Assembly (NCBI RefSeq): GCF_005144475.1
Contig: NZ_SWJZ01000018.1
Location: 1 to 62,142, forward strand
DNA from: Rhodobacter capsulatus
GTDB taxonomy: Bacteria > Pseudomonadota > Alphaproteobacteria > Rhodobacterales > Rhodobacteraceae
DNA length: 62,142 bases
Direction of reading: 5' to 3'
How positions within the stretch are numbered: position 1 is the stretch's first letter; each line of letters opens with the position of its first letter. Of this stretch, positions 9,178 through 61,329 are shown piece after piece. The position numbers and the translations under genes were made by a program. Below the pieces are notes generated by a model that was not told the DNA's origin, did no database searches, and saw only the letters and a program-made list of their open reading frames with translations.

Positions 9178-9201
9178 GGGCGTATTTGGGCCAAGAAGAA
9201 A
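9178..9201 (+). repeat. Dispersed 3'-end element, single copy after tesA
   Basis: GGGCGTATTTG-N3-CAAGAAGAAA lies 15 bases after the tesA stop and touches the end of the convergent MFS gene. It is in plus orientation, matching tesA, and unpaired here. Confidence 0.75.
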
Positions 9202-10404
9202 TCAGCGGTTGCGGTCAAGCGCGATCAGCAGCGCGGCACCGATCAGCGAAAGCGCCGCGCCAAGGAAGGCGGCAAGGCCATAGCCGCCAAGGCTGGTGCC
9301 AAGCGCGAAGCAGGTGGCGGAAAAGGCGTCGCCCGCCAGTTTTTGCAACGCCATCAGCGAGGCGCCCGCGCCGGGGCGCTCGGCCATCAGGTCCTGCAGA
9401 TAGGCCATTGGCTGGGTCAGCACGATGGCGCCGCCGATCGCACCAGACAGCGTCAACGCCCAGACGGCGGGGGTCTCGGCCAGAAGCGGGATGCCCGCCA
9501 GATGGACGGCGTAGAGAAACGTGCCCAGCGCGATCAGATGGGTGCGTTTGACCCTGGTCGCAACGAAGGGCAGCGCCAGCATGAAGGGCACTTCAAGCCC
9601 GGCCATGAGGCCCGCGTAAAGCGCGGTGTCAGAGGCGCCGCGAAACGGAATGCCCGCGAAAACCAGCCCGACGACGACCATGTAAAGCATCACCGCGCCG
9701 TTGATCGTGCCCAAAGCCAGAACCCGGATCAGCACCTGCGGATGGGCGATCTCGGTCAGCGCTTCGCGGAACGAAAGGCCCGAGGGCACGTCTTCCCAAT
9801 GGGTTGCGCCGTCGCGCGGCCAAAGCCGGACGGTCAGCCCCAGCATCAGCACTGCCAAGACAAGGCAGACCGGATAGATCGCGGTGAGGGGGGTGTCGCC
9901 CTGAAACACCACCGACCAGATCGGCAGCACCACGACCCAGGGCAGCGCGAAAAGCGCGCGCAGGGTCGACAGGATCGCGGGCCGGTCGGCCTCGGGCTGG
10001 GTGGTGGCGGCCAGGCGGGCAAGCGCGAAGATCTGCCCGAAGATCGCGCTGGAGATCGGCAGCAACAGCGCATGGGCCAGAACGAAGGCGGGGGTGGCGG
10101 GGGCAAGGGCCATCAGCGCCGTGCCCAGCGTCAGCGCGGTGACGGTGGTCAGCGCGATGGCGCGGCGGTTGGCGCGCTGATCGGCCAGAATGCCGAAGCC
10201 GACCGAGGTGGCGACGGCGACCAGCGAGGCCAGGATCAGCAGCGCCGAAAACGCATGGTCCGAGAGGCCGAAGACCTTCACGGCAAGCGAGGACACATAG
10301 GGCGCGATCGTCGCGGCATGGGCGCCGAAAAGCACAAGCAGGCCGGCGGCCAGCATCAGGGTGCGGTCGCGCAGGATCGGGCGGAAGGGGGCGGCGAGGG
10401 ACAT
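9202..10404 (-). CDS. MFS transporter, possibly a sugar-efflux type
   Basis: The 400-residue inner-membrane protein shows about twelve hydrophobic segments in two halves. The loop after helix 2 contains GILADQRANRRAI, a form of the MFS motif A. Overall size and the 12-helix plan fit the major facilitator superfamily; the sequence looks closest to sugar-efflux (SetA-like) members, but that is from memory. It lies 38 bases after the FAD-oxidase gene on the same strand and may be cotranscribed with it. The substrate cannot be read from the sequence. Confidence 0.8.
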   Translation of the reverse strand: MSLAAPFRPILRDRTLMLAAGLLVLFGAHAATIAPYVSSLAVKVFGLSDHAFSALLILASLVAVATSVGFGILADQRANRRAIALTTVTALTLGTALMALAPATPAFVLAHALLLPISSAIFGQIFALARLAATTQPEADRPAILSTLRALFALPWVVVLPIWSVVFQGDTPLTAIYPVCLVLAVLMLGLTVRLWPRDGATHWEDVPSGLSFREALTEIAHPQVLIRVLALGTINGAVMLYMVVVGLVFAGIPFRGASDTALYAGLMAGLEVPFMLALPFVATRVKRTHLIALGTFLYAVHLAGIPLLAETPAVWALTLSGAIGGAIVLTQPMAYLQDLMAERPGAGASLMALQKLAGDAFSATCFALGTSLGGYGLAAFLGAALSLIGAALLIALDRNR

Positions 10405-10442
10405 GCGGCCTGATGCGCCTGGCAGAGGCGATTCTCAACCCC

Positions 10443-11819
10443 CTACGGCAGCACCTTGCCGGGGTTGAGGAGGCCCTTGGGGTCGAGCGCCGCCTTGATC
10501 GCGGCCATCATCGCCAGCGCGACCGGGTCTTTATGCGCCGCCATGGTGGCGCGTTTCGAAATCCCCACCCCGTGTTCGGCACTGAAACTGCCGCCCAGGG
10601 CGACCGCCTCGGCGCTGACCCGGGCACGGATCGCCTTGGCCAGCCCGGGGTCGGGACGCGCGGGGTAAGCGGTGTAATGGATGTTGCCGTCGCCCAGATG
10701 CGCGATCACCAGCTCCTCGGCGCCGGGATCAAGCGCGGCCAGCACGGGCGTCATCCGGGTCAGGAAAGTCTCCAGCCGGTCGAGCGGCAGGGCGATGTCG
10801 CAATCGACGATGTCCGGCGTGGTGAAGGTGATCTCGGCCGCCGATTCGCGCATCTCCCACAGCTTGCGGCGCTGCGTGGCCGATTGCGCGATCACCGCTT
10901 CGGTCACCTGCCCCGCCTCCAGCGCGGCACCCAGCAGGGCTTCCAGCGCGGCGACCGGATGGGCGCCGGGAATGGTCGTCGCGGTCTCGATCAGCACATT
11001 GACCGGGCGGGGGGCATAGGGACAGGCGAGCGCCGGTTTCAGCCGGGCAAGCCGCGCCATGTAGCGGTCGGGCATGAATTCAAACGCCTCGACCGCGCCG
11101 CCGGTGCCGGATTGCACGGTGTTGAGCAGCGCGAGCGCCTCGGACAGGCTCTCCAGCCCGACCAGCGCGGTTGCGTAGGCCGTGGGCGCGGGCACCAGTT
11201 TCAGCACGGCAGCGGTGATGATGCCCAAGGTCCCCTCGGCCCCGATGATCAGATCGCGCAGGTCGTAGCCGGTGTTGTCCTTGTGCAGGCCGGTCAGCCC
11301 GTGCCAGATCCGGCCATCGGCCAGAACCACCTCCAGCCCCAGACACAAGGCCCGGGCCGAGCCGTAGCGCAGCACATTCGAGCCGCCCGCATTGGTGGAC
11401 AGAAATCCCCCCACCATCGCCGAGCCCTTGGCCCCGAAGCTCAGCGGAAAGGCCAGCCCCTGCCCGGCGGCAAGATCCTGCAGGGTTTCCAGCACCACCC
11501 CGGCTTCCGCCACCACCGTCCGCGCGGCGGGGTTCAGATCGCGGATGCGGGTCATGCGGGCCAGCGACAGCATCAGCGCGCCGGGCGCATAGGTGCCGCC
11601 GTTCAGCCCGGTGTTGCCGCCGACGGGCACGACCGGCGTGCCGGTCTGATGCGCCAGCCGCAGGACCGCCGCCACCTCCTCGGTCGTGCCGGGGCGGACA
11701 ACGGCCAGGGGTTCCCAGGTATAATGCCCGGTCCATTCGCGGCCATGGGCCAAGGCTTCGGCCCCGCGCAGAACCTGCGCAGGGCCGAGAATTTCGCTCA
11801 AACGGTCAAGAAGATCCAT
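10443..11819 (-). CDS. FAD-linked oxidase (GlcD / D-lactate dehydrogenase type)
   Basis: This is a flavoprotein dehydrogenase of the VAO family acting on a D-2-hydroxy acid such as lactate, glycolate or 2-hydroxyglutarate. The 458 residues contain the FAD-binding segment VVPVGGNTGLNGG, IGAEGTLGIIT in the middle, and the C-terminal HLGDGNIHY and FSAEHGVGISKR that shape the active site. I chose the ATG at 11819, because an in-frame start 15 codons upstream falls inside a dispersed palindrome. The exact substrate is undetermined. Confidence 0.88.
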   Translation of the reverse strand: MDLLDRLSEILGPAQVLRGAEALAHGREWTGHYTWEPLAVVRPGTTEEVAAVLRLAHQTGTPVVPVGGNTGLNGGTYAPGALMLSLARMTRIRDLNPAARTVVAEAGVVLETLQDLAAGQGLAFPLSFGAKGSAMVGGFLSTNAGGSNVLRYGSARALCLGLEVVLADGRIWHGLTGLHKDNTGYDLRDLIIGAEGTLGIITAAVLKLVPAPTAYATALVGLESLSEALALLNTVQSGTGGAVEAFEFMPDRYMARLARLKPALACPYAPRPVNVLIETATTIPGAHPVAALEALLGAALEAGQVTEAVIAQSATQRRKLWEMRESAAEITFTTPDIVDCDIALPLDRLETFLTRMTPVLAALDPGAEELVIAHLGDGNIHYTAYPARPDPGLAKAIRARVSAEAVALGGSFSAEHGVGISKRATMAAHKDPVALAMMAAIKAALDPKGLLNPGKVLP

Positions 11820-11850
11820 CGGATCGCCCGGGGCTTTGGCCGCGCTTTTG

Positions 11851-11902
11851 CGTATTTGCACCAAGAAGAAACGGCATGGGTTTCTTCTTGGCCCAAATAC
11901 GC
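11851..11902. repeat. Paired dispersed element (palindrome) after hemC
   Basis: Two copies of CGTATTTG-N3-CAAGAAGAAA face each other around a short loop and form a long hairpin. The minus-oriented copy begins 22 bases after the hemC stop and matches its direction. The plus copy has no plus-strand gene ending beside it. The pair probably terminates hemC transcription before the FAD-oxidase gene. Confidence 0.75.
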
Positions 11903-11924
11903 CCTTTGCGCGGGGGCGGCAGGC

Positions 11925-12878
11925 TTAGCGCCAGCAGAAGAAATCCGCGGGCGCCTTGGCCAGCAGCTGCTTCGCCAGCTCCGCGCCAAGGGCCACGCCA
12001 TCGGCGGCCGGACCACGGATCTCGCCGGTGATCGTCTCGGAGCCATCGGGACGCAGGATCTCGCCGCGCAGCCAGATCTGATCGCCTTCCAGCACCGAAA
12101 GACCGCCGATCGGGGTCTCGCAGGAGCCGTCGAGCGTCAGAAGGAAGCTGCGTTCGCAAGCCAGACGCAGCCCCGAGGGCGCGTGATGGATCGCATCGAG
12201 CAGCATCTTCGCGCGGGTATCGGCCTCGCGGCGTTCGATCCCGATGCAGCCCTGCGCCACGGCGGGCAGCATGTCTTCGGGCTCGATCGCGGATTTCGCG
12301 ACGTCGGACATGCCCAGACGGTTCAGACCGGCGAGCGCGAGGAAAGTGGCATCGGCCACGCCTTCGCCCAGTTTCTTCATCCGCGTCTGCACGTTGCCGC
12401 GGAATTCGACCATCTTCAGATCGGGGCGGCGCGCCGCAAGTTGCGCGCGACGGCGCAAGCTGGAGGTGCCCACCACCGCGCCCTCGGGCAGCTCGGCGAG
12501 CGAGTTGTATTTCATCGAGACGAAGGCATCGCGGGTGTCTTCGCGCGGCAGGTAGCAGTCGAGGATCAGCCCCTCGGGCTGAAGCGTCGGCATGTCCTTC
12601 ATCGAATGCACGGCGATGTCGATCGAGCCCGCCAGCATCGCCTCTTCGATTTCCTTGGTGAAAAGGCCCTTGCCCCCCACCTCTTTCAAAGGCTTGTCGG
12701 CGGCGATCAGCGCCGCGTTGTCGCCCGAGGTCTTGATCACGACGATCTCGAAGGCCTCTTCGGGCAGATCGAAGGCGGCCATGAGCCGCGAGCGGGTCTC
12801 AAAGGCTTGCGCGAGCGCCAGAGGGCTGCCGCGGGTGCCGATCTTCAGCGGGGCGTTGGGCGAGGGCATCTGTTCCAT
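11925..12878 (-). CDS. hemC: Porphobilinogen deaminase (hydroxymethylbilane synthase)
   Basis: HemC condenses four porphobilinogens into hydroxymethylbilane for heme and bacteriochlorophyll. The 317-residue protein begins [14 protein letters not shown] after a short leader. It has the substrate arginines in [12 protein letters not shown] and the dipyrromethane cofactor cysteine in GSCETPIGG (Cys253). The start could be the ATG at 12878 or the one three codons later. It is divergent from hemE, the next but one enzyme of the pathway, and both could answer to the CrtJ/PpsR-like site between them. Confidence 0.95.
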
Positions 12879-12923
12879 GCGCTTGGCATAACCGCGTCAG
12901 ATTGCCCGCGCAAGCTTTACAAG

Positions 12924-12941
12924 TGTCAACAGTGCTTGACA
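12924..12941. promoter_or_regulatory. CrtJ/PpsR-type palindrome TGT-N12-ACA between hemC and hemE
   Basis: TGTCAA-N6-TTGACA is a perfect inverted repeat that fits the TGT-N12-ACA consensus of CrtJ/PpsR, the aerobic repressor of photosynthesis genes. Its right half is the -35 hexamer of the proposed hemE promoter, so binding would block RNA polymerase. Confidence 0.65.
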
Positions 12942-12965
12942 TTCAGCCGCAGGGGACGCTGTTAA
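12936..12965 (+). promoter_or_regulatory. Probable hemE promoter
   Basis: A perfect -35 hexamer TTGACA (12936-12941) is followed after 18 bases by TGTTAA (12960-12965). The implied start is about 15-20 bases before the hemE ATG, leaving room for the ribosome site AAGGAGG. Confidence 0.5.
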
Positions 12966-12988
12966 GGGGCAAGAAGGAGGCCCTCCAA

Positions 12989-14023
12989 ATGACCGACAAG
13001 ACGATCCTGCGCGCCCTCAAGGGCGAAGTTCTTTCCACGCCGCCGGTGTGGCTGATGCGGCAGGCGGGCCGTTATCTGCCCGAATACCGCGCCACCCGCG
13101 CGCAGGCGGGCGATTTCCTCTCGCTGTGCTACACGCCGGACCTGGCCGCCGAGGTGACGCTGCAGCCGATCCGCCGTTACGGCTTTGACGCGGCGATCCT
13201 GTTTGCCGACATTCTGCTGCTGCCGCAGGCGCTTGGGCTGGATCTGTGGTTTGAAACCGGGGAAGGCCCCCGGATGTCCACCGTGACCTCGATGGAGGGC
13301 GTCAAGGGCCTGAAGGGCAAGGACGACATCCACGAGAAGCTTGCCCCGGTCTATGAGACCTGCAAGATCCTGTCGCGCGAGCTGCCGAAGGAAACCACCT
13401 TCATCGGCTTTGCGGGCATGCCCTGGACCGTGGCCACCTACATGATCGCGGGCCGCGGCTCGAAGGATCAGGCCGCCGCGCACAAGTTCAAGGACACCGA
13501 CCGGGCGGCCTTCTCGGCGCTGATCGATGCGGTGACCGTGGCGACGATCGAATACCTCTCGAAACAGGTCGAGGCGGGCTGCGAAGTGGTCAAGCTCTTC
13601 GACAGCTGGGCCGGGTCGCTCAAGGGCCAGGATTTCGAGGATTTCGCGGTCGAGCCCGCCCGGATCATCACCGCCGAGATGAAGCGCCGCTTCCCCGGCC
13701 TGCCGGTCATCGCCTTCCCGCGCGAGGCGGGCAATGGTTACATCGGCTTCGCCGAGAAGACCGGGGCGGATTGCGTCGCCATCGACAATTCGGTTTCGCC
13801 CGACTGGGCGGCGGCGAATGTGCAGATGGGCAAGACCTGCGTGCAGGGCAACCTTGACCCGTCCTACATGGTGACCGGCGGCGAAGCCCTTGTCGAAGCG
13901 ACGAAAAAGGTCGTCGCCGCGTTCAAGAACGGGCCCCATATCTTCAACCTCGGCCATGGCATCACCCCCGAGGCGAACCCGGACAACGTCACCCTGCTGA
14001 TGGAAACCATCCGCAAGGGCTGA
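12989..14023 (+). CDS. hemE: Uroporphyrinogen decarboxylase
   Basis: HemE removes four carboxyl groups from uroporphyrinogen III to give coproporphyrinogen III in the cytoplasm. The 344-residue protein has the standard length and the signature [14 protein letters not shown] near the start (21-34), followed by [13 protein letters not shown]. The ATG at 12989 follows a strong AAGGAGG. The longer in-frame extension upstream would run through the promoter and is not used. A dispersed element and a terminator follow the stop. Confidence 0.97.
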
Positions 14024-14030
14024 GCGCGCA

Positions 14031-14073
14031 GGGCGTATTTGGACCAAGAAAAAGGGGGCCGCGAGGCCCCCTT
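14031..14073 (+). terminator. Dispersed element fused to a terminator after hemE
   Basis: GGGCGTATTTG-N3-CAAGAAAAA (14031 on, plus orientation) runs directly into a hairpin of AAAGGGGGCC, loop GCGA, and GGCCCCCTTT (14051-14072). It sits between convergent hemE and the helicase gene, and the A- and T-flanks allow termination in both directions. Confidence 0.75.
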
Positions 14074-14093
14074 TGCATGTCTGGCGCAGCGGT

Positions 14094-16079
14094 TCAGAAG
14101 CTGCGCGGTTTTTTCGGGCCGGGCTTGCCCGCGGGTTTCGCGCCCGGCTTGGCAAAGCTTTTCGCGCCGTATTTCGGCGCCGGTTTGCCCTCTTTCGCGG
14201 CGGCGCCATGGCCGCCTTCGCGCGCCCAGGGGGCGGCCTTGCGGGGTTTCGGCGCCGGGGCGTCGCCCACGGGCTTGCGGGCCGGACGCTCGGCTTTCTC
14301 GAACCGCTCGGCGCGTTCGGGGCGCTCGGCCCCCTCTTCGCGCGGCGGGCCCTTGCGATGCGGCTTCAGCGCGGGCTTGTCGCCATAGCTGCCGCGCGGC
14401 GCATAGGGTTTCTTCTCGTAGGGCTTGCGATCGCCGGTCTTGGTCCAGCGGTCAGGCTTCGGCGCCGGACGGTCGAGGCCCTCGGGCATGCCCGGCAGAT
14501 TTTCCACCGTGCATTTGCCTTCCATCACCCGGTCGGCGCCCAGACCCGCCTCGAAGCGGTCGGCCATCGATTCATGGATCTGCACGAAGGTCTCTTGCTG
14601 CATCACCCGGATCATCCCGATGTCGCGCCGGGTCAGATCGCCCGCGCGGCACAGCATCGGCAAAAGCCATTTCGGATCAACCCACTGGTCATGACCCATC
14701 GAGAGCCGATACCAGCGCGCGGCGCCGAATTCCTCGCGCGCGCGGGGCTTCGGCCCCTCGCCCACGGTGACGGCGATCACATCCTCGGGCGCGGTGCGGG
14801 CGGCGCGGAAATGGCGCAGCACGGCGGCGGCCAGCTGCTTCGGCTCATGCGTTTCCAAAAGCCGGGCGATGGCGTCAAATTCCTCGGCCGTCGCGGGCTC
14901 GACCAGCGCCGGTTCCGTCAGCAGACGTTCCTGATCGCGGGCCAGAATATCCTCGGGCGTCGGCGCCCCTTCCCAGGTCACCGAGACCTGCGCCTCGCGC
15001 AGCAGCCGCTCGGCCTTGGCGCGCACGTTCAGCGGCACGACAATCGCCGACAGCCCCTTGCGCCCGGCCCGGCCGGTGCGGCCCGAGCGGTGCAACAGCC
15101 CCTCGCGGTTCATCGGCAGATCGGCGTGAATCACCAGCTCCAGCCCCGGCAGGTCGATGCCGCGCGCGGCGACGTCGGTCGCAATGCAGACCCGCGCCCG
15201 GCCATCGCGCATCATCTGCAGCGCGCGCGAACGTTCGTCCTGCGTCAGCTCCCCCGACAGCGCCACGACCGAGAAGCCCCGGTTCAGAAGCTTGCCCGTC
15301 AGATGCGTCACCGCCGCCCGGGTCGAGCAGAACACGATGGCGCGCTCGGCCTCGTGCAGGCGCAGCAGGTTGACGATGGCGTTTTCCCGGTCGGACCGGT
15401 CCACCAGCACGCCGCGATAGTCGATATCGGCATGGCTTTCGCGCGACGACACGGTGGAAATCCGCTCCGCCTCGCGCTGGAAGGTCTGCGCCAGCCGCTC
15501 GATCTCGCGCGGGACCGTCGCCGAAAACATCAGCGTGCGACGCCCCTCGGGCGCGGATTCCAGAATGAATTCCAGATCTTCGCGGAAGCCCATGTCGAGC
15601 ATCTCGTCGGCCTCGTCCAAGACGACGGCCGAGAGCGCCGACAGATCCAGCGCGCCGCGGCGGATGTGATCGCAGATCCGCCCGGGCGTGCCCACAACGA
15701 TATGCGCGCCGCGTTCCAGCGCCCGGCGCTCGGCGCGGGCATCCATGCCGCCGACGGCGCCGGTGATCACCGCCCCCGCCTTTTCGTAAAGCCAGCTCAG
15801 CTCGCGGCTGACCTGCACGGCCAATTCGCGCGTCGGCGCGACAACCAGCGCGCGCGGCAGATCCGGATAAGGCGAAATGCCGTTTTCGCCCAAAAGCTCG
15901 GCCGAGATCGCCAGCCCGAACGCCACCGTCTTGCCCGACCCCGTCTGCGCCGAGACGAGGAGATCCCGTCCGGCCAGCTCGGGGCGCGTCACCGCGTCCT
16001 GAACGGGCGTCAGGGCATCATAGCCCCGCGCGGACAGAGCCTCGGCAAGCGCCGCGGGAAGATGGGGGAAGTCGGTCAT
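14094..16079 (-). CDS. DEAD-box ATP-dependent RNA helicase with basic C-terminal tail
   Basis: The protein unwinds RNA duplexes, probably in ribosome assembly or mRNA decay. The 661 residues include AQTGSGKT (motif I), APTRELA, GTPGRICDHI, VLDEADEML (II), FSATV (III) and HRSGRTGRAGRKG (VI). A DbpA-like RNA-binding domain follows (about 460-540). The tail of about 110 residues is rich in Lys, Pro, Arg and Gly and probably disordered. The domain order is that of DeaD/CsdA proteins. The start at 16079 gives MTDFPHLPAAL, typical of the family. Confidence 0.92.
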   Translation of the reverse strand: MTDFPHLPAALAEALSARGYDALTPVQDAVTRPELAGRDLLVSAQTGSGKTVAFGLAISAELLGENGISPYPDLPRALVVAPTRELAVQVSRELSWLYEKAGAVITGAVGGMDARAERRALERGAHIVVGTPGRICDHIRRGALDLSALSAVVLDEADEMLDMGFREDLEFILESAPEGRRTLMFSATVPREIERLAQTFQREAERISTVSSRESHADIDYRGVLVDRSDRENAIVNLLRLHEAERAIVFCSTRAAVTHLTGKLLNRGFSVVALSGELTQDERSRALQMMRDGRARVCIATDVAARGIDLPGLELVIHADLPMNREGLLHRSGRTGRAGRKGLSAIVVPLNVRAKAERLLREAQVSVTWEGAPTPEDILARDQERLLTEPALVEPATAEEFDAIARLLETHEPKQLAAAVLRHFRAARTAPEDVIAVTVGEGPKPRAREEFGAARWYRLSMGHDQWVDPKWLLPMLCRAGDLTRRDIGMIRVMQQETFVQIHESMADRFEAGLGADRVMEGKCTVENLPGMPEGLDRPAPKPDRWTKTGDRKPYEKKPYAPRGSYGDKPALKPHRKGPPREEGAERPERAERFEKAERPARKPVGDAPAPKPRKAAPWAREGGHGAAAKEGKPAPKYGAKSFAKPGAKPAGKPGPKKPRSF

Positions 16080-16160
16080 ATGGGGGGGGCTTTCGCTACA
16101 ATCAAAGCGCAGCCCATACGCCCAATCTCCCCGAAAGGAAAGCCCCGTTCTGGCATCACG

Positions 16161-16228
16161 GCAAATATCCCGCTTTCACCTTGGCCAAATATCCCGGGGG
16201 GCGGCGCAGCCGGGGGGCAGAGCCCCCC
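16161..16228 (-). repeat. Dispersed 3'-end element in a divergent spacer
   Basis: A minus-oriented core TTTCACCTTG-N3-CAAATATCCCGGG (16174-16200) is joined to a G-run/C-run hairpin with loop AGA (16212-16228). A partial second copy, CAAATATCCCG, lies just before it (16162-16172). No minus-strand gene ends here: both neighbours start at this spacer, which breaks the rule seen for the other copies. Confidence 0.65.
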
Positions 16229-16283
16229 TCCCCGGTTGCCTTTTTGCGCCGCGGGCGCAAGAATGCCGCAAACGGAGGGTTCC

Positions 16284-16685
16284 ATGCGCAAGCTGATCGT
16301 GTTCGGTGTTCTGGCTCTGGCCGCCTGCGGCACGCCGCAGGAACAATGTATCAACCGCGAAACCCGCGAGATCCGGCATCTGCAGGACATGCTCGACGAG
16401 GTCGAGGGCAATCTGGCGCGCGGCTACGCCTATGAGGATTACGACGTGCCGATGACGCGCTGGGAACAATGCGGCACCGACGTGATCCGCCGCGGCAACG
16501 GCACGGTGATCGAAAAGCCGCGCATGTGCATGGAAGATTACACCGTCACCCGCACCCGCGAAGTGGCGATCGATCCGGTCTCGGAACGGCGCAAGCGCGA
16601 CGGGCTGCGCGACAAGATCGACGAGCTGACCCCCGTCGCCAATGCCGCGATCCGCGCCTGCAAGGCGGCCTATCCCGAGGAATAG
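16284..16685 (+). CDS. Small lipoprotein of unknown function
   Basis: The 133-residue protein has a clear lipoprotein signal (MRKLIVFGVLALAACG, lipidated Cys15). The mature part is charged, with four further cysteines (two in EQC contexts, one in MCMED and one in IRACKAAY), which could form disulfides in the periplasm. Two stretches, about 25-50 and 100-125, look helical. I do not recognise a named family. The ribosome site CGGAGGG supports the ATG at 16284. The stop lies 18 bases from the end of the convergent methyltransferase gene. Confidence 0.75.
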   Translation: MRKLIVFGVLALAACGTPQEQCINRETREIRHLQDMLDEVEGNLARGYAYEDYDVPMTRWEQCGTDVIRRGNGTVIEKPRMCMEDYTVTRTREVAIDPVSERRKRDGLRDKIDELTPVANAAIRACKAAYPEE

Positions 16686-16703
16686 GCCCCCTCGCGCCAG
16701 CTG

Positions 16704-17768: not shown

Positions 17769-17789
17769 CAGATCGGAGGGGTGCCCCCC

Positions 17790-18143: not shown

Positions 18144-18316
18144 GGGCAGTCCTCCGCAGTGTCGAAAGGGTCGAATCGGTGTCAAATATCCATGATCGCA
18201 GGGAATCGTGGATCCGGGGATCAATATAGGACCATGGCGCGGCAAGAAAAGCCAGTGCGGCGCATCTTGCCAACCGCGCGCCCCGGCGTCAGGTTGACCG
18301 CGCAAGGAGAGCCCCG

Positions 18317-20873: not shown

Positions 20874-20944
20874 GCGTATTTTTGCCAAGAAGAAACCCGG
20901 ATCCCTGAAAAAGAGGTCCGGGTTTCTTCTTGGTCCAAATACGC
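20874..20944. repeat. Paired dispersed element between convergent genes
   Basis: Two inverted copies of the CGTATTT...CAAGAAGAAA core face each other. The inner arms extend by GGGTCCGG-like bases, so the whole 71-base stretch folds as one hairpin. The plus copy follows the carboxypeptidase stop by 24 bases, and the minus copy follows the ccoS stop by about 14. It probably ends both transcripts. Confidence 0.8.
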
Positions 20945-31423: not shown

Positions 31424-31536
31424 GGGGGGCGCTGCCCCCCGTCCCTGCGGGACTCCCCCCGGGATATTTGTGGCAAGATAAAGGGGCCTTGTTTTATCTT
31501 GCCACAAATATCCCGGGGTGCGGGGCAGAGCCCCGC
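31424..31536. repeat. Composite paired dispersed element between hisA and hisF
   Basis: In order there is a G-run/C-run hairpin with loop GCT starting on the hisA stop (31424-31440), a small GTCCC-TGC-GGGAC hairpin (31441-31453), two inverted copies of CCCGGGATATTTG-N3-CAAGATAAA (31457-31518), and a closing hairpin GCGGGGC-AGA-GCCCCGC (31520-31536). It lies between two plus-strand genes, so only hisA ends here. It may separate hisA from hisF-hisE. Confidence 0.75.
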
Positions 31537-42830: not shown

Positions 42831-43000
42831 ATGCCCCCCCTGTCCCTGCCTGTCGGCGCCTGAGATCGTTATCCCTTCGGCGGACCCGTTTCGGGTCACT
42901 CTCCAGAGTTCTTTGTCAGAACGGTCCTTTTGCCTGAGAGTTTACCGGGGCGGTTGCTCCTTCGGCCCTGACCTTGCGGCCAGCGTCTCCCGATCCTGAC
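42831..43000 (-). ncRNA. Tandem glycine riboswitch in the gcvT leader
   Basis: The first aptamer contains GCCGAAGGAGCAA (minus strand, 42966-42954) and CTCTCAGGCAAAAGGACCG (42940-42922). A linker stem CTCTGGAGAG (42908-42899) follows, then a second aptamer with CCGCCGAAGGGATAACGA (42883-42866), CTCAGGC (42864-42858) and GGGACAGG. These are the conserved cores of the cooperative glycine riboswitch, which turns gcv expression on when glycine is high. About 55 bases remain to the gcvT ATG for the expression platform. Confidence 0.9.
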
Positions 43001-43006
43001 GCCCCT

Positions 43007-43124: not shown

Positions 43125-43171
43125 TTTATCTTGCCCCAAATATCCCGGGGGTCTGGGGGCAGCGCCCCCAG
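43125..43171 (-). repeat. Dispersed 3'-end element after gltX
   Basis: A hairpin CTGGGGGC-AGC-GCCCCCAG (43171-43153) is followed on the minus strand by CCCCGGGATATTTG-N3-CAAGATAAA (43150-43125). The order and orientation match gltX, whose stop is 4 bases away. A true T-run terminator comes next, so the element itself is not the only terminator here. Confidence 0.75.
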
Positions 43172-47376: not shown

Positions 47377-47517
47377 GGGGGGCTCTGCCCCCCGGCTGGC
47401 GCCCCCCCGGGATATTTGCCCCAAGGTGAAAGCAGACAGGATTTGCCCTTTCACCTTGGGACAAATATCCCGGGGGGTGAATTTTGGCGCAGCCAAAAGA
47501 GGGGGGCCGCGCCCCCC
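47377..47517. repeat. Composite paired dispersed element between pfkB and znuB
   Basis: In order: a hairpin GGGGGGC-TCT-GCCCCCC (47377-47393), two inverted copies of CCCGGGATATTTG...CAAGGTGAAA (47403-47476), a hairpin TTTTGGC-GCA-GCCAAAA (47482-47498), and a hairpin GGGGGGC-CGC-GCCCCCC (47501-47517). The layout is nearly symmetrical. pfkB and znuB converge here, and each half has the orientation of its own gene. Confidence 0.8.
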
Positions 47518-52846: not shown

Positions 52847-52852
52847 GATCGG

Positions 52853-53323: not shown

Positions 53324-53656
53324 GATCTCACTCCGAAAAAGGCGCGCCCCTCCCGCAGGATCGGGGCGCGCTCAGGAACCGCCGGACGCGGGCGCGCCCT
53401 GGCGAAAGCAGTACATCTGTCCGGGCCCCCCGACAACGGCCGCGCGCATCGTGAGTGGCGGCCCGGTCCGGTGTCGAGGTCAGTCCAGCGGCAGACCGGG
53501 CCGGGCCCCGCCCGTCCGATCCGCCCGTCACGTCTGGGGGACGGGACACCGATCTGTCGCCCGCCGCCGCCGGAAAGGCAATTCAGCGAAAGGTATAAAC
53601 CGGCGAAGGTGAGGCGGAAATCCGCGCCATAAACTTTGGTGTAGGGGCCGAAAACG
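53324..53656. other. Non-coding stretch with a possible promoter
   Basis: I see no convincing gene. On the minus strand TTTCCG (53620-53615) lies 17 bases before TATACC (53597-53592), a possible promoter for the PepSY-like and LuxR genes, though about 270 bases from the first ATG. The rest is GC-rich with several short inverted repeats. Confidence 0.35.
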
Positions 53657-53684
53657 CAAAAGCGGCGCCCCGGGCGCCGCCTTT
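53657..53684 (-). terminator. Rho-independent terminator of trpB
   Basis: On the minus strand GCGGCGCC-CGG-GGCGCCGC (53680-53662) is followed by TTTTGCGTTTTC. It lies 24 bases after the trpB stop and ends the long minus-strand gene row. Confidence 0.75.
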
Positions 53685-53707
53685 GTCGAGCCAGTCCGCC
53701 GGGCGGA

Positions 53708-54940
53708 TCAGATCTTCATCTCGACGCCCAGATGCTTCGCCACGGTGAAGATGTCCTTGTCGCCCCGCCCCGACAGGTTGATCACGATGATGTGGTCTTT
53801 CGGCAGACCCGGCGCGATCTTCATCACATGCGCCAGCGCATGGCTGCTTTCCAGCGCCGGGATGATGCCTTCGGTACGGCAGCAGAACTGGAACGCCTCC
53901 AGCGCCTCCATGTCGGTGATCGAGACATATTCCGCCCGCTTGATGTCATGCAGCCAGCTGTGTTCCGGCCCGATCCCCGGATAATCAAGCCCCGCCGAGA
54001 TCGAATGCCCTTCCAGGATCTGCCCGTCCTCGTCTTGCAGAAGATAGGTGCGGTTGCCATGCAGCACGCCCGGCCGCCCGCCGGTCAAGGACGCGCAATG
54101 CTGCATCCGGTCATCGACGCCCAGCCCCCCGGCCTCGACCCCGATGATCCGCACCGACGGGTCATCGAGGAACGGATGGAACAGCCCCATGGCGTTCGAG
54201 CCGCCGCCGACACAGGCGATGATCGTGTCGGGCAGACGGCCTTCGCCCTCCTGCTCCTCCAGCTGCCAGCGGGTTTCCTTGCCGATGATCGACTGGAAAT
54301 CGCGCACCATCGCCGGATAGGGCGCAGGCCCCGCGACGGTGCCGATGCAGTAAAACGTGTCGCGCACATTCGTCACCCAGTCGCGCAACGCGTCGTTCAT
54401 CGCGTCCTTCAGCGTGCCCCGCCCCGAGGTCACCGGCACCACCTCGGCGCCCAGAAGCTTCATCCGGAACACGTTCGGCGCCTGACGTTCGACGTCGGTG
54501 GCGCCCATGTAAACAATGCATTGCAGCCCGAACTTCGCGCAAACGGTGGCCGTCGCCACGCCATGCTGACCGGCGCCGGTCTCGGCGATGATCCGGGTCT
54601 TGCCCATGCGCCGGGCCAGCAAAATCTGCCCGAGCACGTTGTTGATCTTGTGCGCGCCGGTGTGGTTCAGCTCCTCGCGCTTGAGGTAAACCTTCGCGCC
54701 CCCCAGCTCCTCGGTCATCCGCGGCGCGAAATAAAGCGGCGAGGGACGGCCGACGTAATGCTTCCACAGCGCGTCCATCTCGGCCCAGAAGGTCGGGTCG
54801 GTCTTGGCGTGCTCATACTGCGCCTCAAGCTCAAGGATCAGCGGCATCAGCGTCTCGGACACGAACCGCCCGCCATGAATGCCGAAGCGGCCGTTGTCAT
54901 CCGGAGCCGTCATGAAACTGTTGAGCCGATCTTCCGCCAT
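53708..54940 (-). CDS. trpB: Tryptophan synthase beta chain
   Basis: TrpB joins indole and serine to tryptophan with PLP. The 410-residue protein has the PLP lysine in [15 protein letters not shown], the [13 protein letters not shown] loop, and the [10 protein letters not shown] phosphate site. The start at 54940 follows AAGGGGAC; a Met nine codons later is also possible. trpA is not directly downstream in this window. It belongs to the row rpsA-ihfB-lapA-trpF-trpB. Confidence 0.96.
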
Positions 54941-55008
54941 CGCCGTCCCCTTTGTCCTTCACGCGCCAACAGCAGATAGCGCGCCCCCCCCTCGGGGTAA
55001 AGTTCCTG

Positions 55009-55056
55009 TTTCTTCTTGGCACAAATACGCTGGGGGTCCGGGGGTGAAACCCCCGG
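55009..55056 (-). repeat. Dispersed 3'-end element after trpF
   Basis: On the minus strand, a CCGGGGG-N5-CCCCCGG hairpin (55056-55038) is followed by GCGTATTTG-N3-CAAGAAGAAA (55030-55009). The order and orientation match trpF. It lies in the 117-base spacer before trpB. Confidence 0.7.
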
Positions 55057-55057
55057 C

Positions 55058-55729
55058 CTACCCCTGCGCCGCCGCGACAAAGGCGGCCATCCGGGCGGCC
55101 TCCTTGACCCCGGGCGCGCTTTCGACGCCCGAGGAGACATCGACCTGAAGCGCCCCGGTCAGCCGCACCGCATCGCGCACGTTCTCGGGCGTCAGCCCGC
55201 CGGCCAGCATCCACGGACGTTGCCAGACCCGGCCCGCAATCAGCCGCCAATCGAAAGCCAGCCCGTTGCCGCCCGGCAGCGCCGCGCCCTTCGGCGCCTT
55301 CGCATCGACCAGGATCTGATCCGCCACGGCCTCGTACTCGGCGATCGCCGCCAGATCGGCCGCCTCGGCCACGCCGACGGCCTTCATCACCGGCAGGCCG
55401 AAGCGCGCCTTCACCTCGGCCACCCGGGCAGGGCTTTCCTTGCCATGAAGTTGCAGCATGTCCAAGGGCACCGCCGCGGTGATCGCCTCCAGAGCCGCGT
55501 CATCGGCATCGACGACCAGCGCCACCTTGGCCAGCCCCACGGGTGCGGCAAGCGCCAGGTCGCGGGCGGCGGCGATCTCCAGATGGCGGGGGGAGCGGGG
55601 GAAAAACACAAGGCCGATGTAGCCCGCCCCCGCCGCGGCGGCAGCCTCCACATCGGCCGGTGTTCTCAGCCCGCAGATCTTGCAGCGCACCCCGCCGGGG
55701 CGGCCACGGTTGATGGCGACGGTGACCAC
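55058..55729 (-). CDS. trpF: Phosphoribosylanthranilate isomerase
   Basis: TrpF isomerises phosphoribosylanthranilate in tryptophan synthesis. The 223-residue beta-barrel has the catalytic cysteine in [14 protein letters not shown]. It has [22 protein letters not shown], and [13 protein letters not shown], the phosphate loops. A GTG at 55729 with TGAGGG upstream is chosen; the GTG at 55690 would start just before the catalytic motif but lacks a ribosome site. It starts 7 bases after lapA. Confidence 0.93.
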
Positions 55730-55736
55730 GGCGCCC

Positions 55737-56093
55737 TCAGGCGCGGGGCTTGTCGAGCAGCGCCAGAACCTCGTCTTTCGGGCCTTGCGTCTTTTCCTTC
55801 AGCCGGCCCAACTCGCGCTCCAGCGTCGCGGCCTGTTTCGTCGCCTTGCGGGCGGTCTTGCGAAAGCGATGCTCGCGCAGATATTCCCAGACGAAGCCGA
55901 CGCCCAGCCCCAGCAGCATCCCGCCGAAGAAGACGAAGAACAGCGGCACCGGCAGATGCAGGTTGAAGCCGACAAAAGCCTCGATCTCGGAGGTCAGCAG
56001 ACTGAGCGTCACCACCTCGCGGTTGGACATCGCCAGCGTCACCAGAACGAGGATGAGGCAAGCCAGGAACAGGTAGCGGATCGCGCGGAACAT
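55737..56093 (-). CDS. lapA: LapA-domain membrane protein
   Basis: The 118-residue inner-membrane protein has two helices (about 5-24 and 48-69) flanking the LapA (DUF1049) motif [12 protein letters not shown] basic coiled-coil-like tail (about 75-110) follows. In E. coli LapA works with LapB in control of lipopolysaccharide synthesis; no lapB is adjacent here, so the role is only inferred. It sits between ihfB and trpF with gaps of 6 and 7 bases. Confidence 0.88.
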
Positions 56094-56099
56094 CGGGTC

Positions 56100-56387
56100 T
56101 TACTCCTCTACCCCGTTCAGCCGGTCGCGCAGAAGCTTGCCGGTCTTGAAGAAGGGCACGTGTTTTTCATCGACCGCGACCGATGTGCCGGTGCGCGGAT
56201 TGCGCCCGGTTCTAGCGTCCCGTTTCTTCACCGAAAAGGCGCCAAAGCCGCGCAGCTCGACCCGATCACCGCGGGCCATCGCCTCGATGATCTCGTCGAA
56301 GATCGTGTTCACGATCTTCTCCACGTCGCGCTGAAACAGATGCGGATTCTCTTCGGCGATCTTGGCGATCAATTCAGAGCGGATCAT
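56100..56387 (-). CDS. ihfB: Integration host factor beta subunit
   Basis: IhfB pairs with IhfA to bend DNA at promoters and recombination sites. The 95-residue protein begins [20 protein letters not shown] and has [21 protein letters not shown], with the proline-containing beta arm that enters the minor groove. It follows rpsA, as is usual in proteobacteria. The spacer upstream has a terminator, so its own promoter is expected within 56388-56611. Confidence 0.96.
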
Positions 56388-56611
56388 GCGTCATCTCCCC
56401 CGTCACCCGGCTCGACCCGGACTGGTTCTTGCCCAGACTATAGGGGGAATTTTCCGCGACACAAACAGCAATGGCTTGGAAAGGCGGGAAATTATCGCCT
56501 GCCATCGCGGTTTCGGCCCCGATCTGCGGCGCTCGGACGCAGTCCTCCATCGGCTGACCCTGCGGAAAGGCGGTTTCAGCCCCGATGCGCAACCCCGTGG
56601 CGAATCGCACA

Positions 56612-56642
56612 AAGGAAAAGGCCCCGCAAAAGCGGGGCCTTT
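56612..56642 (-). terminator. Rho-independent terminator of rpsA
   Basis: On the minus strand AAAGGCCCCGC-TTTT-GCGGGGCCTTTTCC forms a perfect stem with a T-run. It lies 20 bases after the rpsA stop. Confidence 0.85.
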
Positions 56643-56662
56643 CCGATCCCTTGCGGGAAAGA

Positions 56663-58342
56663 TTATTCGCGGCCCTTGAGCGCGGCGCCAAGGATGTCGC
56701 CGAGCGAGGCGCCCGAGTCGGACGTGCCGTATTGTTCCACGGCTTCCTTCTCTTCGGCGATCTCGCGCGCCTTGATCGACACGCCCAGCTTGCGGGTCTT
56801 GCTGTCGATGTTGACAACGCGCACGTCGACGTGATCGCCGACCTGGAAGCGCTCGGGGCGCTGGTCGGCACGGTCGCGGGCCAGATCCGAACGGCGGATG
56901 AAGGACTTCATGCCGTTGTATTCGACCTCGATGCCGCCGTCTTCGATCGCGGTGACGTTCACGGTGATGACCGAGCCACGTTTCACGCCATCGACCGCAT
57001 CCGAGAAGGTGTCGGCATCCAGCGCCTTGATCGAGAGCGAGATGCGTTCCTTGTCGGTGTCGACTTCGGTGACCGCCGCGCGCACGACGTCGCCCTTGCG
57101 GTATTCCTGGATCGCTTCTTCGCCGCGCTTGTCCCACGACAGGTCGGACAGGTGCACCATGCCGTCGATGTCGTTTTCGAGGCCGATGAACAGACCGAAT
57201 TCGGTGATGTTCTTGACTTCACCCTCGATCACCGTGCCGACCGGATGGGCATCGGCGAAGGCTTCCCACGGGTTGCGCAGGCATTGCTTGAGGCCCAGCG
57301 ACACGCGGCGTTTCGCGGTGTCGATCTCGAGCACCATGACGTCGACTTCCTGCGAGGTCGAAACGATCTTGCCGGGGTGCACGTTCTTCTTGGTCCAGGA
57401 CATTTCCGAGACGTGAACCAGACCCTCGACACCGGCTTCCAGCTCCACGAAGGCGCCGTAATCGGTGATGTTGGTGACGCGGCCCTTGTGGACCGAGCCC
57501 AGCGCGAATTTGGTTTCCACCGAATCCCACGGGTCGTTCAGCAGCTGCTTCATGCCGAGGCTGATGCGGTGGGTGTCCTTGTTGATCTTGACGACCTGGA
57601 CCTTGACGGTCTCGCCGATCGTGAGGATCTCCGACGGGTGGTTGACGCGGCGCCAGGCCATGTCGGTGACGTGCAGCAGGCCATCGACGCCGCCGAGGTC
57701 AACAAACGCACCGTATTCGGTGATGTTCTTGACCACGCCGTCGACGATCTGACCTTCGGTCAGGTTGCCGATGACTTCGGCGCGCTGTTCGGCTCGCGAT
57801 TCTTCCAGGATGGCGCGACGCGAGACAACGATGTTGCCACGGCGACGGTCCATTTTCAGGATTTGGAACGGCTGTTTCAGACCCATCAGCGGGCCGGCAT
57901 CGCGCACCGGACGGACGTCCACTTGCGAGCCCGGCAGGAAGGCCACGGCGCCGCCCAGATCGACGGTGAAGCCGCCCTTGACGCGACCGAAGATGGCGCC
58001 ATCGACGCGCTCTTCGCTGGCATAGGCTTTTTCGAGACGGTCCCAGGCTTCTTCGCGACGGGCTTTCTCGCGCGAGATGACGGCTTCGCCACGGGCGTTT
58101 TCGACGCGATCGAGGTAAACTTCGACCTCGTCGCCGACGGCGATCGAGGGAGCTTCACCGGGATTCGCGAATTCTTTCAGATCGACGCGGCCTTCCATCT
58201 TGTAGCCGACGTCGATGATGGCCTGGCCCGCCTCGATGGCGATGACCTTGCCCTTGACGACCGATCCCTCTTGCGGGGTGTCGATCTCGAAGCTTTCCTT
58301 CAGGAGGGCTTCGAATTCTTCCATGCTAGCTTTGGCGCACAT
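56663..58342 (-). CDS. rpsA: 30S ribosomal protein S1
   Basis: S1 brings mRNA to the 30S subunit. The 559-residue protein has six S1/OB repeats; repeats 3-6 have the clear pattern GxVxNITxYGAFVELxxGVEGLVHVSEMSW. The C-terminus is SGASLGDILGAALKGRE, typical of alphaproteobacteria. I chose the ATG at 58342 because KASMEEFEALLKESFE then follows as in relatives. An in-frame ATG at 58378 also has a good ribosome site and would add 12 residues. Confidence 0.95.
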   Translation of the reverse strand: MCAKASMEEFEALLKESFEIDTPQEGSVVKGKVIAIEAGQAIIDVGYKMEGRVDLKEFANPGEAPSIAVGDEVEVYLDRVENARGEAVISREKARREEAWDRLEKAYASEERVDGAIFGRVKGGFTVDLGGAVAFLPGSQVDVRPVRDAGPLMGLKQPFQILKMDRRRGNIVVSRRAILEESRAEQRAEVIGNLTEGQIVDGVVKNITEYGAFVDLGGVDGLLHVTDMAWRRVNHPSEILTIGETVKVQVVKINKDTHRISLGMKQLLNDPWDSVETKFALGSVHKGRVTNITDYGAFVELEAGVEGLVHVSEMSWTKKNVHPGKIVSTSQEVDVMVLEIDTAKRRVSLGLKQCLRNPWEAFADAHPVGTVIEGEVKNITEFGLFIGLENDIDGMVHLSDLSWDKRGEEAIQEYRKGDVVRAAVTEVDTDKERISLSIKALDADTFSDAVDGVKRGSVITVNVTAIEDGGIEVEYNGMKSFIRRSDLARDRADQRPERFQVGDHVDVRVVNIDSKTRKLGVSIKAREIAEEKEAVEQYGTSDSGASLGDILGAALKGRE

Positions 58343-58454
58343 GCGTTCAAGTTTCCTTTGTATGGGTTTTCTGGCCATGCGGTTGGCTCCGCCGGTCTTT
58401 CGTTGCGTATGTCACAAGGGGGCAGACCTGCGCCTGCCCCCCGTGGACGTGGCC

Positions 58455-58483
58455 CCTATAGGCGGGAATCGCCTGTGGGGCAA
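58455..58483 (-). promoter_or_regulatory. Probable rpsA promoter
   Basis: On the minus strand TTGCCC (58483-58478) lies 17 bases before TATAGG (58460-58455). The start would be near 58448, giving a leader of about 105 bases. The spacer contains an inverted repeat AGGCG-ATTCC-CGCCT. Ribosomal protein S1 is known to control its own mRNA in other bacteria. Confidence 0.5.
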
Positions 58484-58503
58484 GGGTTTTCGGCCCCGGC
58501 GCC

Positions 58504-59136
58504 TCAGTCGATCCGCGTCACCAGCTCCGAAAGCGGCTTGCGCACCTTCTTCATGCCGGCCAGCCAGTCGCCCTCGGCGGCGCGGTAGCCCAGCGGCATC
58601 AGCGTGACCGAGCGCAGACCCTTGGCGCGCAGGCCAAGGATGTCATCGACCGCGGCCGGGTCGAAGCCCTCCATCGGGGTGGCGTCGACCTCAAGCTCGG
58701 CCGCCTGCGCCAGCGCGATGCCGAAGGCGATATAGGCCTGATGCGCGGCATGGGCGGCGTTCACCTCTTCGGTGCGGGCCAGATACATCGCCTTGAGGTT
58801 GTCGTAATAGGGCTGCACCATCTCGCGCGGGATCGCCCGCTCGGTCACATGCAGATCGACGACAGCGTCGATGCGCTCGGCGGTGTAATTGTCCCAGGCG
58901 GCAAAGACGACCAGATGCGAGCCGTCCACGATCTGGGTCTGGCCGAAAGCCGCGGCGGAAATCTTCGCCCGCAGCTCCTTGTTGGTGATCACCAGAATTT
59001 CAAAGGGCTGCAGCCCCGAGGAGGTCGGCGCCATCTGCGCCGCGGTCAGAATCTTTTCGACCTTGTCTTCGGAAACGGCCTTGGCCGGGTCCATCTTTTT
59101 CGTCGCATAGCGCCAGTTCAGGGTATCGAGCAGCAT
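58504..59136 (-). CDS. Nitroreductase-family FMN oxidoreductase
   Basis: The 210-residue protein reduces nitro compounds or quinones with NAD(P)H in the usual family activity. NWRYATKKMD at the start, AAQMAPTSSGLQPFEILVI in the FMN site, and MPLGYRAAEGDW near the end are the signatures of the NfsB/YdgI group. The ATG at 59136 gives the normal N-terminus. It lies between cmk and rpsA on the same strand, interrupting the common cmk-rpsA pair. Confidence 0.9.
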   Translation of the reverse strand: MLLDTLNWRYATKKMDPAKAVSEDKVEKILTAAQMAPTSSGLQPFEILVITNKELRAKISAAAFGQTQIVDGSHLVVFAAWDNYTAERIDAVVDLHVTERAIPREMVQPYYDNLKAMYLARTEEVNAAHAAHQAYIAFGIALAQAAELEVDATPMEGFDPAAVDDILGLRAKGLRSVTLMPLGYRAAEGDWLAGMKKVRKPLSELVTRID

Positions 59137-59215
59137 CGAGGGGCATCCTTTCGCGGTTGAGCGTGTGGCCCCAAGATAGGCGCACAGCCGCACGACGCAA
59201 CGAAAGCTTCTGCGC

Positions 59216-59803
59216 CTATTTGCACAGCCGTTCGGACACCACCGCGCAGGCCGCCGCGATCGCGTCCTCGATGCTCATGTCCGAGGTGTCGATCACCACG
59301 GCATCCGCAGCGGGGCGCAGCGGCGCATCGGCCCGGGTCATGTCGCGCGCGTCGCGCTCCTTCACCTCGGCCAGCACCTGCGCGGCGTCGCCACCCACCT
59401 CCAGCCAGCGCCGATGCGCCCGCACCTCGGGGCTGGCGGTGACGAAGAGCTTCACCTCGGCTTCGGGGCAGATGACGGTGCCGATGTCGCGCCCATCCAG
59501 CACCGCGCCGCCCGCGCGGCGGGCAAAATCGCGTTGGAAATCAAGAAGCGCCTGCCGCACTTCGGGGATGACGGCGACCTTCGAGGCCGCCTGCCCCGCG
59601 TCCAGCGTGCGCAGATCGTCGCGCGCCAGATCCTCGGGCGTCAGCCCGCGCGCGGCGGCCACCGGATCGCCGCCCTTGACGCCGACCGCCCGGTAAAGCG
59701 CCCCGGTGTCCAGATGCGCAAAGCCGAACCGTTCGGCCACGGCGCGGGAAATCGTGCCCTTGCCAGCGGCGGCAGGCCCGTCGATCGCCACGGTGAACAT
59801 CAT
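59216..59803 (-). CDS. cmk: Cytidylate kinase
   Basis: Cmk phosphorylates CMP and dCMP. The 195-residue protein has the P-loop [11 protein letters not shown] (8-18), [10 protein letters not shown], and [14 protein letters not shown] in the NMP-binding domain. It is a little shorter than E. coli Cmk (227). The start could be the first or second Met (59803 or 59800). It follows aroA, as in many alphaproteobacteria. Confidence 0.95.
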
Positions 59804-59837
59804 CTTGAACCTCGCACGGGCTTCAACGTTGCAGTTT

Positions 59838-59890
59838 GCGTATTTTGACCAAGAAGAAAACCATGGGCTTCTTCTTGGCGCAAATACGCC
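59838..59890. repeat. Paired dispersed element between cmk and aroA
   Basis: Two inverted copies of GCGTATTT...CAAGAAGAAA face each other with CCATGG at the centre, so the whole 53 bases fold as one hairpin. The minus copy follows the aroA stop by 10 bases. The plus copy faces the start of cmk and has no gene end beside it. The right arm continues into CCTTT. Confidence 0.78.
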
Positions 59891-59899
59891 CTTTCGACC

Positions 59900-61243
59900 T
59901 CAGTCCCGGGTGATGCTGGCGCCAAGATCGCGCATCAGATCCTCGAAGACCGGGAAGGAGGTGGCGATCGGCGAGCCGTCATCGACCGAAATCGACTCCT
60001 GGCTGACAAGGCCGAGCACCAGGAAGCTCATCGCGATGCGGTGGTCGATATGGGTGGCGACGGTGGCGCCGCCGGGCACGCCCTCGGGCCCAAGCCCGTG
60101 CACGATCAGCGTGTCCTCGTCTTCCTCGACACGGACACCGCAGGCTTCCAGCCCGCGCGCCATCGCCGCGATGCGGTCGCTTTCCTTCACCCGCAGCTCA
60201 TGCACGCCGCGCATCACGGTGGTGCCGGTGGCGCAGGCGGCCAAAGCGGCCAGCACCGGATATTCGTCGATCTGCGCGGCGGCGCGCTCGGCCGGCACCT
60301 CGATGCCCGTCAGGGCCGAGTGGCGCACGCGCAGATCGGCAACCGGCTCGCCACCCTCCTCGCGTTCATTGAGGAATGCGATATCGGCGCCCATCTCGCG
60401 CAGCGTGATGAAGAGCCCGTTGCGGGTCGGGTTCTGGCTGACCCCCGGCACAAGGATGTCCGAACCCGGCACCAGAAGCGCCGCGCAGACCGGGAAGGCG
60501 GCCGAGGACGGATCGCGCGGCACCGCCACCTCTTGCGCCACCAGTTCGGGCTGGCCCTGCAGGGTGATCCGGTTGCCCTCGGGCGTGGCCTCGACCGTCA
60601 CCTCGGCGCCAAAGCCGCGCAGCATCCGTTCGGTGTGATCGCGGGTCGGCGTCTTTTCGATCACCACGGTTTGCCCCGGCGCGTTGAGCCCCGCCAGCAG
60701 CACCGCCGATTTCACCTGCGCCGAGGCCATCGGCGTCGTGTAGGTGACCGGCACCGGCTCGGCCGCGCCGACCAGCGTCATCGGCAGCCGCCCGCCCGCG
60801 CGCCCGTAAGACCGCGCGCCAAACAGCGCCAGCGGATCGGTCACCCGCCCCATCGGGCGCTTGCGCAGGCTCGCATCGCCGGTGAAGGTCGCGGTGATCG
60901 GGCTGGTCGCCATGCAGCCCATGATCAGCCGCACGCCGGTGCCCGAATTGCCGCAATCGATCACCTCGGCAGGCTCGGCAAAACCGCCGACCCCCACCCC
61001 CTCGACCGTCCAGGCGCCCGGGCCGGTGCGGGTGACGGTGGCGCCAAAGGCCTGCATCGCCTTCGCCGTATCCAGCACGTCCTGCCCCTCGAGCAGCCCG
61101 GTGATCCGCGTCGTGCCCACCGAAAGCGCGCCCAGGATCAGCGCGCGATGCGAGATCGACTTGTCGCCCGGCACCGCGGCCACGCCCGAAAGCGGGCCGC
61201 CCTTGCGCGACGTCATGCGGATGGGGGAACCGTGAGCGGACAT
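59900..61243 (-). CDS. aroA: 3-phosphoshikimate 1-carboxyvinyltransferase (EPSP synthase)
   Basis: AroA makes EPSP from shikimate 3-phosphate and PEP. The 447-residue protein begins with [17 protein letters not shown], then has [13 protein letters not shown] and [10 protein letters not shown], and ends with the [13 protein letters not shown] block. The Gly-Ala-type substitution CGNSGTGVR with SLRKRPM resembles the class II variants, but that needs alignment. The ATG at 61243 follows GGGAGG. Its product is the substrate of AroC at 33-34 kb. Confidence 0.95.
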
Positions 61244-61305
61244 GAAAGCCTCCCTGAATGTCAGGGCCCTGTTAGCGCACCGCGCCCCGACCGAAAAGCC
61301 CCGCG

Positions 61306-61329
61306 TTTCTTCTTGGCGCAAATACGCCC
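61306..61329 (-). repeat. Dispersed 3'-end element after trmB
   Basis: On the minus strand GGGCGTATTTG-N3-CAAGAAGAAA begins eight bases after the trmB stop and has its orientation. It lies between trmB and aroA and is unpaired here. Confidence 0.72.

Follow-up and report, generated by a model that had tools for sequence, protein, structure and literature searches.

The window analysed here, 62,142 nt of Rhodobacter capsulatus (assembly GCF_005144475.1, contig NZ_SWJZ01000018.1; genome 4.22 Mb), carries many copies of a short element beside the ends of its genes. The original prediction described this element as TATTTG-N3-CAAG, and every copy that it named exists. The motif is real, but its sixth base is variable (mostly G; T, C or A also occur), and the true core is TATTT-N4-CAAG. 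The window holds 16 intact copies of this core and one damaged copy (16179-16191); of the copies listed below, 14 are exact to TATTTG-N3-CAAG, two have base 6 alone altered and one is damaged. The two flank sets proposed earlier are also real and coupled. The three dialects of this genome, each with coupled left and right flanks, are GCG...CCAAG-AAGAAA (A), GGGA...GCAAG-ATAAA or ATGAA (B) and GGGA...CCAAG-GTGAAAG (C), and the dialect bases lie at about -3 to -1 and +13 to +18 of the core. Five converging pairs account for ten of the 16 intact copies; each is an inverted repeat whose arms form a long stem. Ten genes adjoining the copies were named by NCBIfam, some below the curated cut-off: tesA-like, hemC, hemE, D-Ala-D-Ala carboxypeptidase, ccoS, hisA, pfkB-type kinase, znuB, aroA and trmB. 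The copies, with one adjoining hairpin, are as follows.

1862-1874, plus strand: B-type single copy, CCCCCCGGGA-TATTTGCAGCAAG-ATAAA, in a convergent gap
9183-9195, plus strand: A-type single copy, with the tesA-like gene ending 20 bases away on one side and a convergent gene ending 6 bases away on the other
11853-11865, plus strand: A-type left arm of a converging pair in the tandem gap that follows hemC, antisense to that transcript
11887-11899, minus strand: A-type right arm of the hemC pair, 25 bases past hemC
14036-14048, plus strand: A-type single copy, 12 bases past hemE
14054-14071, plus strand: terminator-like hairpin read from the sequence, GGGGGCC-GCGA-GGCCCCC followed by TTT, directly 3' of the hemE copy
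16179-16191, minus strand: damaged copy in a divergent gap, one gap base lost; the near relative G326 has an intact core
20877-20889, plus strand: A-type left arm of a pair, 3' of the D-Ala-D-Ala carboxypeptidase gene
20929-20941, minus strand: A-type right arm of the same pair, 3' of ccoS
31465-31477, plus strand: B-type left arm of a pair, 3' of hisA in a tandem gap
31498-31510, minus strand: B-type right arm of the hisA pair, antisense to the hisA transcript
43130-43142, minus strand: B-type single copy; a hairpin with TTTTTT comes next in the direction of the copy
47413-47425, plus strand: C-type left arm of a pair between the pfkB-type gene and znuB
47455-47467, minus strand: C-type right arm of that pair, in the same gap
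55015-55027, minus strand: A-type single copy in a tandem gap
59841-59853, plus strand: A-type left arm of a pair, antisense to the aroA transcript
59874-59886, minus strand: A-type right arm of the aroA pair, 13 bases past aroA
61312-61324, minus strand: A-type single copy, 12 bases past trmB

The element is over-represented. With up to two mismatches, TATTTGNNNCAAG matches the window 26 times against 14.2 expected (maximum in 100 shuffles, 24). With up to one mismatch, the whole genome gave 166 + 151 matches compared with 26 + 25 for the reversed pattern (317 vs 51), a large genomic over-representation of the kind that marks DNA uptake sequences (DUS) and uptake signal sequences (USS). For placement, we used 1.6 Mb of the genome, taken in stretches, with 1425 called genes (calls uncurated); TATTT-N4-CAAG occurs there 168 times, and the reversed pattern five times. 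A single one of the 168 copies lies inside a called gene, though 86.6% of this DNA is coding, and all five reversed-pattern controls lie inside genes. The gap counts cover intergenic gaps of 30 bases or more, as defined by the called genes; these contain 156 of the 168 copies (the other 12 were excluded). Copies were found in 41 of 132 convergent gaps, 54 of 536 tandem gaps and 6 of 210 divergent gaps (convergent vs tandem, p = 1.5e-8; tandem vs divergent, p = 8e-4). In tandem gaps the median distance from the stop codon to the first copy is 40 bases. Gaps with two copies hold them facing each other ('><') in 53 cases and back to back ('<>') in two, and the facing copies are mostly near enough to form one long hairpin.

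The orientation of the copies is a different matter. It had been proposed that the element follows gene ends in a fixed orientation, and 13 of the 17 copies in the window do lie after a stop codon and point in the direction of that gene; the arms at 11853, 31498-31510 and 59841 are antisense, and the damaged copy sits in a divergent gap. Across the 1.6 Mb the rule fails, with 43 copies in tandem gaps sense to the gene and 40 antisense. A strictly gene-oriented RNA element of the 3' untranslated region is likewise not borne out, as tandem single copies are split 14 to 11 (p = 0.69) and facing pairs hold both orientations; pooling this genome with further loci gives 26 sense and 20 antisense tandem singles. 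One trace of orientation was seen in tandem A-type pairs, where a G at -4 is present in 21 of 22 sense copies and 7 of 21 antisense copies (a position picked post hoc, counted in this genome and at loci picked for A-type copies). The gap-type counts, the bias towards facing pairs and the near-equal orientations in tandem gaps together show that the element belongs to gene ends, without a tie to gene direction. The original prediction is thus partly contradicted by the mixed orientation relative to stop codons; its view of a dispersed element of gene 3' ends that is not randomly placed holds, with strong conservation of the sequence and strong hairpins adjoining.

Conservation was measured in three collinear relatives of the window, which were not selected for the element. 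The alignments had to span the element, as was the case for 14, 14 and 11 of the 16 copies. In the orthologous copies, TATTT shows no substitution at 195 positions (five gapped) and CAAG none at 156 (two gapped), while 39 of 117 positions in the three gap bases are substituted (approximately 34%; one gapped). The flanks diverge by 7.6% and 10.8%, and fourfold sites by 15.8%, 13.2% and 23.8% in the three relatives. With the relatives as reference (14/16, 14/16 and 10/11 alignments), the counts are 0/190 for TATTT, 0/152 for CAAG and 39/114 for the gap. A wider set of 62 alignments (core kept in 59), which includes loci chosen for A-type copies, gives 0/305, 1/246 and 62/185, respectively. Because the core is unsubstituted while the gap bases change, the core is under strong selection or drive, and the gap is free.

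One and the same gene end can carry different dialects in sister species, the copy having switched in place. HemE is 97, 98 and 99% identical in G326, G327 and G328 to that of this genome. The copy at 1862 reads GGGA...ATAAA here and GAGG...ATGA in both G327 and G328, and is of A type (GGCG...AAAAAG) in G326; at 31465, both arms switch dialect together in G328. The terminator-like hairpin after hemE is kept in near relatives with or without the element. The hemE element itself is present here and in G327 and G328, is absent from G326, G322 and G319, recurs in more distant members of the genus, and in two cases stands on both sides of the hairpin. The C-type pair at 47413-47467 is an apparent gain, as the same gap is empty of the pair in the three nearest relatives.

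Among the genomes sampled, the element is confined to Rhodobacteraceae, where numerous members have it, with copy numbers that reach the hundreds. The pattern RTATTT-N4-CAAGRNGAA was found in 50 of 120 genomes of the family, with at least ten copies in 30 of them and no control matches; the genomes without a match may hold other dialects. In a draw of 142 genomes from the class, the 141 besides this one (one of the same family) gave at most three matches each, 23 in total compared with 13 for the reversed control. The right halves are specific to genera: AAGAA, ATGAA, AGGAA, AAAGA, AAAAA and AAGAT. The dialect CTCAGTGAA has 21 copies in genome G016 and one match among 60 other genomes searched. 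By eye, G016's own dialect, GTATTTNNNGCTCAGTGAA with its 21 copies, faces A-type copies in some convergent gaps. Full pairs are present in at least 29 of 199 genomes.

Core bases 6-8 vary freely among copies, and no covariation of these gap bases between arms was detected in 45 of our own pairs or in 65 of 74 listed pairs of other genomes (genomes with at least two pairs only). The bases pair arm to arm in 26, 19 and 32 of the 45 own pairs, and shuffles gave 24.0, 19.1 and 30.4. Other genera lean to mismatch (p about 0.05), a tendency carried by one genome, G518, in which the gap bases of the arms mismatch beyond chance in ten listed pairs. The loops of several listed pairs in G518 also share sequence like TAAGAGCACTC, which suggests copying of whole hairpins.

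Single copies, too, stand beside hairpins. By eye, most single B- and C-type copies follow a G+C-rich hairpin and then a C-rich linker when read along the element, irrespective of how the gene is oriented. A stable hairpin beside the element, as in intrinsic terminators, is also seen in the best 36-nt folds next to single copies, which have a median of -23.2 kcal/mol compared with -16.3 after base shuffling (36 gaps). In element-free gaps (150 sampled of 373), the best-fold median is -18.6, and -14.8 when shuffled.

A glycine riboswitch (42912-43002, minus strand; Rfam) shares its gap with the B-type copy at 43130. Elsewhere in the window, two tandem transfer RNA (tRNA) genes lie at 225-296 and 354-425 (plus strand) with equal Rfam scores; at gathering thresholds, Rfam reported in the window only these tRNAs and the riboswitch, and no family matched the element. 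At further loci, two elements in inverted orientation, spaced by approximately 140-210 bases, enclose a conserved RNA-like hairpin with the sequence CGGYCATCGGC-N6-GCCTNTNCCG (L122 around position 1501, at G000:C154:42746, and L102, L104, L105, L106, L107 and L115). In L102, L105, L107 and L115 it lies between an acyl-CoA dehydrogenase-like gene and a downstream thiolase gene, mostly with a glutathione S-transferase-like protein, as read from the sequence, between the two genes. Locus L102 gave only a chance match to Rfam with E values up to 10. This hairpin could be a new small RNA or a leader.

We tentatively favour the reading that the element is a cis site specific to Rhodobacteraceae, which would lie at transcript ends, be recognised in trans and help to end or insulate transcription; we regard this as possible and stop short of calling it probable. 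A trans-acting factor with a site in DNA is suggested by selection on two blocks around an unconstrained spacer, by the coupling of dialect bases at a distance of one and a half to two helical turns, and by the use of both orientations; the position beside hairpins suggests help in ending or insulating transcription. The putative factor would read a site of approximately 22 bp. As single copies are found in either orientation, double-stranded DNA is the probable form in which the site is read. From its place next to a hairpin, the factor would hold up RNA polymerase, or shut off the gene end on either side, as a roadblock-type helper of termination, and the dialects would follow its specificity. 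In eukaryotes, TTF-I, Reb1 and mTERF are proteins that stop RNA polymerase when bound at a gene end; the analogy is in the proposed mode of work only. The more specific proposal built on it, of a Rhodobacteraceae factor with co-evolving dialects that binds beside gene-end hairpins and stops or insulates transcription as a bacterial counterpart of such roadblock terminators, is in our judgement unlikely.

A number of observations weigh against our favoured reading of a trans-recognised site at transcript ends. Six divergent gaps hold copies although no gene ends there. In one of them (C58:16945-17617, L027), an A-type copy lies approximately 330 bases upstream of acetolactate synthase and aligns with copies at loci of R. 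capsulatus and R. viridis; an attenuator would account for this copy, but the preceding RNA folds no better than shuffles (z = 0.72). The gain and loss of copies among near relatives show such copies to be dispensable. Intrinsic terminators resemble the element in the hairpin that comes after a stop codon, in some cases with a T run, and T runs do occur at some single copies; the hemE hairpin, however, can exist without the element, and 20 tandem A-type pairs have no T-rich tail on the expected side (sign-flip p = 0.99), unlike ordinary intrinsic terminators. A helical phasing of the pairs was hinted at by 50 of the 77 pairs in this genome and disappeared across genera (spacing 42-68, listed pairs). 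No candidate factor was found, the sole search being for Y1_Tnp. Finally, both arms carry the same dialect in 45 of those 50 pairs, and the same right half in 69 of 74 pairs among those listed from 24 other genomes. Such matching could also stem from selection acting on an RNA hairpin, or from whole hairpins being copied, and together with the -4 G of sense copies it makes a role of the RNA conceivable. An element acting as RNA might stabilise the transcript against 3' exonucleases, serve RNase III or RNase E as a site, or bind a protein close to the 3' end; it would explain why the arms match so that the stem pairs, why the -4 G marks sense copies, and why strong folds stand beside single copies. 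We still consider it somewhat unlikely, as tandem singles are nearly as often antisense as sense, in this genome and in the pooled set, and the gap bases do not covary between arms.

The other explanations treat the element as DNA. Repetitive extragenic palindromic (REP) sequences and bacterial interspersed mosaic elements (BIMEs) are short dispersed extragenic repeats after genes, often paired, and the element resembles them in this. A REP-like mobile repeat without a host role, with types B and C as a copied composite of G+C-rich hairpin, C-rich linker and core, would account for the layout kept in both orientations and the loop sequences that recur among the listed pairs (both by eye), and for the apparent pair gain at 47413-47467. 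We find it rather improbable: neutral decay predicts about 13-24% substitution in a core that shows none at orthologous places, the gap differs between copies, and the REP-associated tyrosine transposase (RAYT) domain Y1_Tnp is absent from this genome. Y1_Tnp was found in 12 of the 120 family genomes, ten of which lack an element match, against 70 of 120 genomes without a match overall; the element is not linked to REP transposases. With one pair as query, BLAST gave no match among plasmids and phages, a result of little weight at a query length of 86 bases. REP/BIME sites also relieve supercoils with gyrase, and a site for a chromosome-structuring protein or a topoisomerase that relieves supercoils at gene ends would fit the enrichment between convergent genes and the use of both orientations. 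A sharp bipartite core with dialects is unlike a loose A+T preference, and of all the readings we hold this one to be the least probable. Biased DNA exchange might also keep the sequence, as it does the uptake sequences of Neisseriaceae and Pasteurellaceae. Rhodobacterales produce gene transfer agents, and the dialects differ by genus. Uptake signals are indeed the closest analogue, sharing many copies, facing hairpin pairs, enrichment in convergent gaps and taxon variants in the excerpts of PMC1852404 and PMC2397512. The excerpt of the former (Kingsford 2007) has '+-' pairs of uptake sequences acting as terminators, which matches the facing-pair bias and terminator setting seen here, and that of a 2026 survey (PMC13020248) places such motifs in Neisseriaceae and Pasteurellaceae. 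Uptake signals, however, have a substantial coding share (47-70% in five Pasteurellaceae, in the excerpt of PMC2346458), and the near-absence of our element from genes (1/168) speaks against a simple DNA-uptake sequence. The free spacer within the core and the three dialects in one genome are further differences, and we hold the exchange explanation to be even less probable than a REP-like repeat.

To our knowledge, bacterial terminators have been thought to lack a shared sequence, save for embedded uptake sequences. In the excerpt of PMC5217627, a shared terminator sequence is unexpected outside USS genomes, and in that of PMC7866481, a MEME analysis of the 15 nt preceding those 3' ends of R. 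sphaeroides that depend on polynucleotide phosphorylase gave no motif. No description of the element was found among the papers listed, judged by title and the start of the abstract; one may exist elsewhere. The element could improve the prediction of terminators in R. capsulatus. If the favoured reading is true, Rhodobacter and its relatives, an important group, would possess a factor that has so far gone unrecognised and that serves to terminate transcription or insulate the genome.

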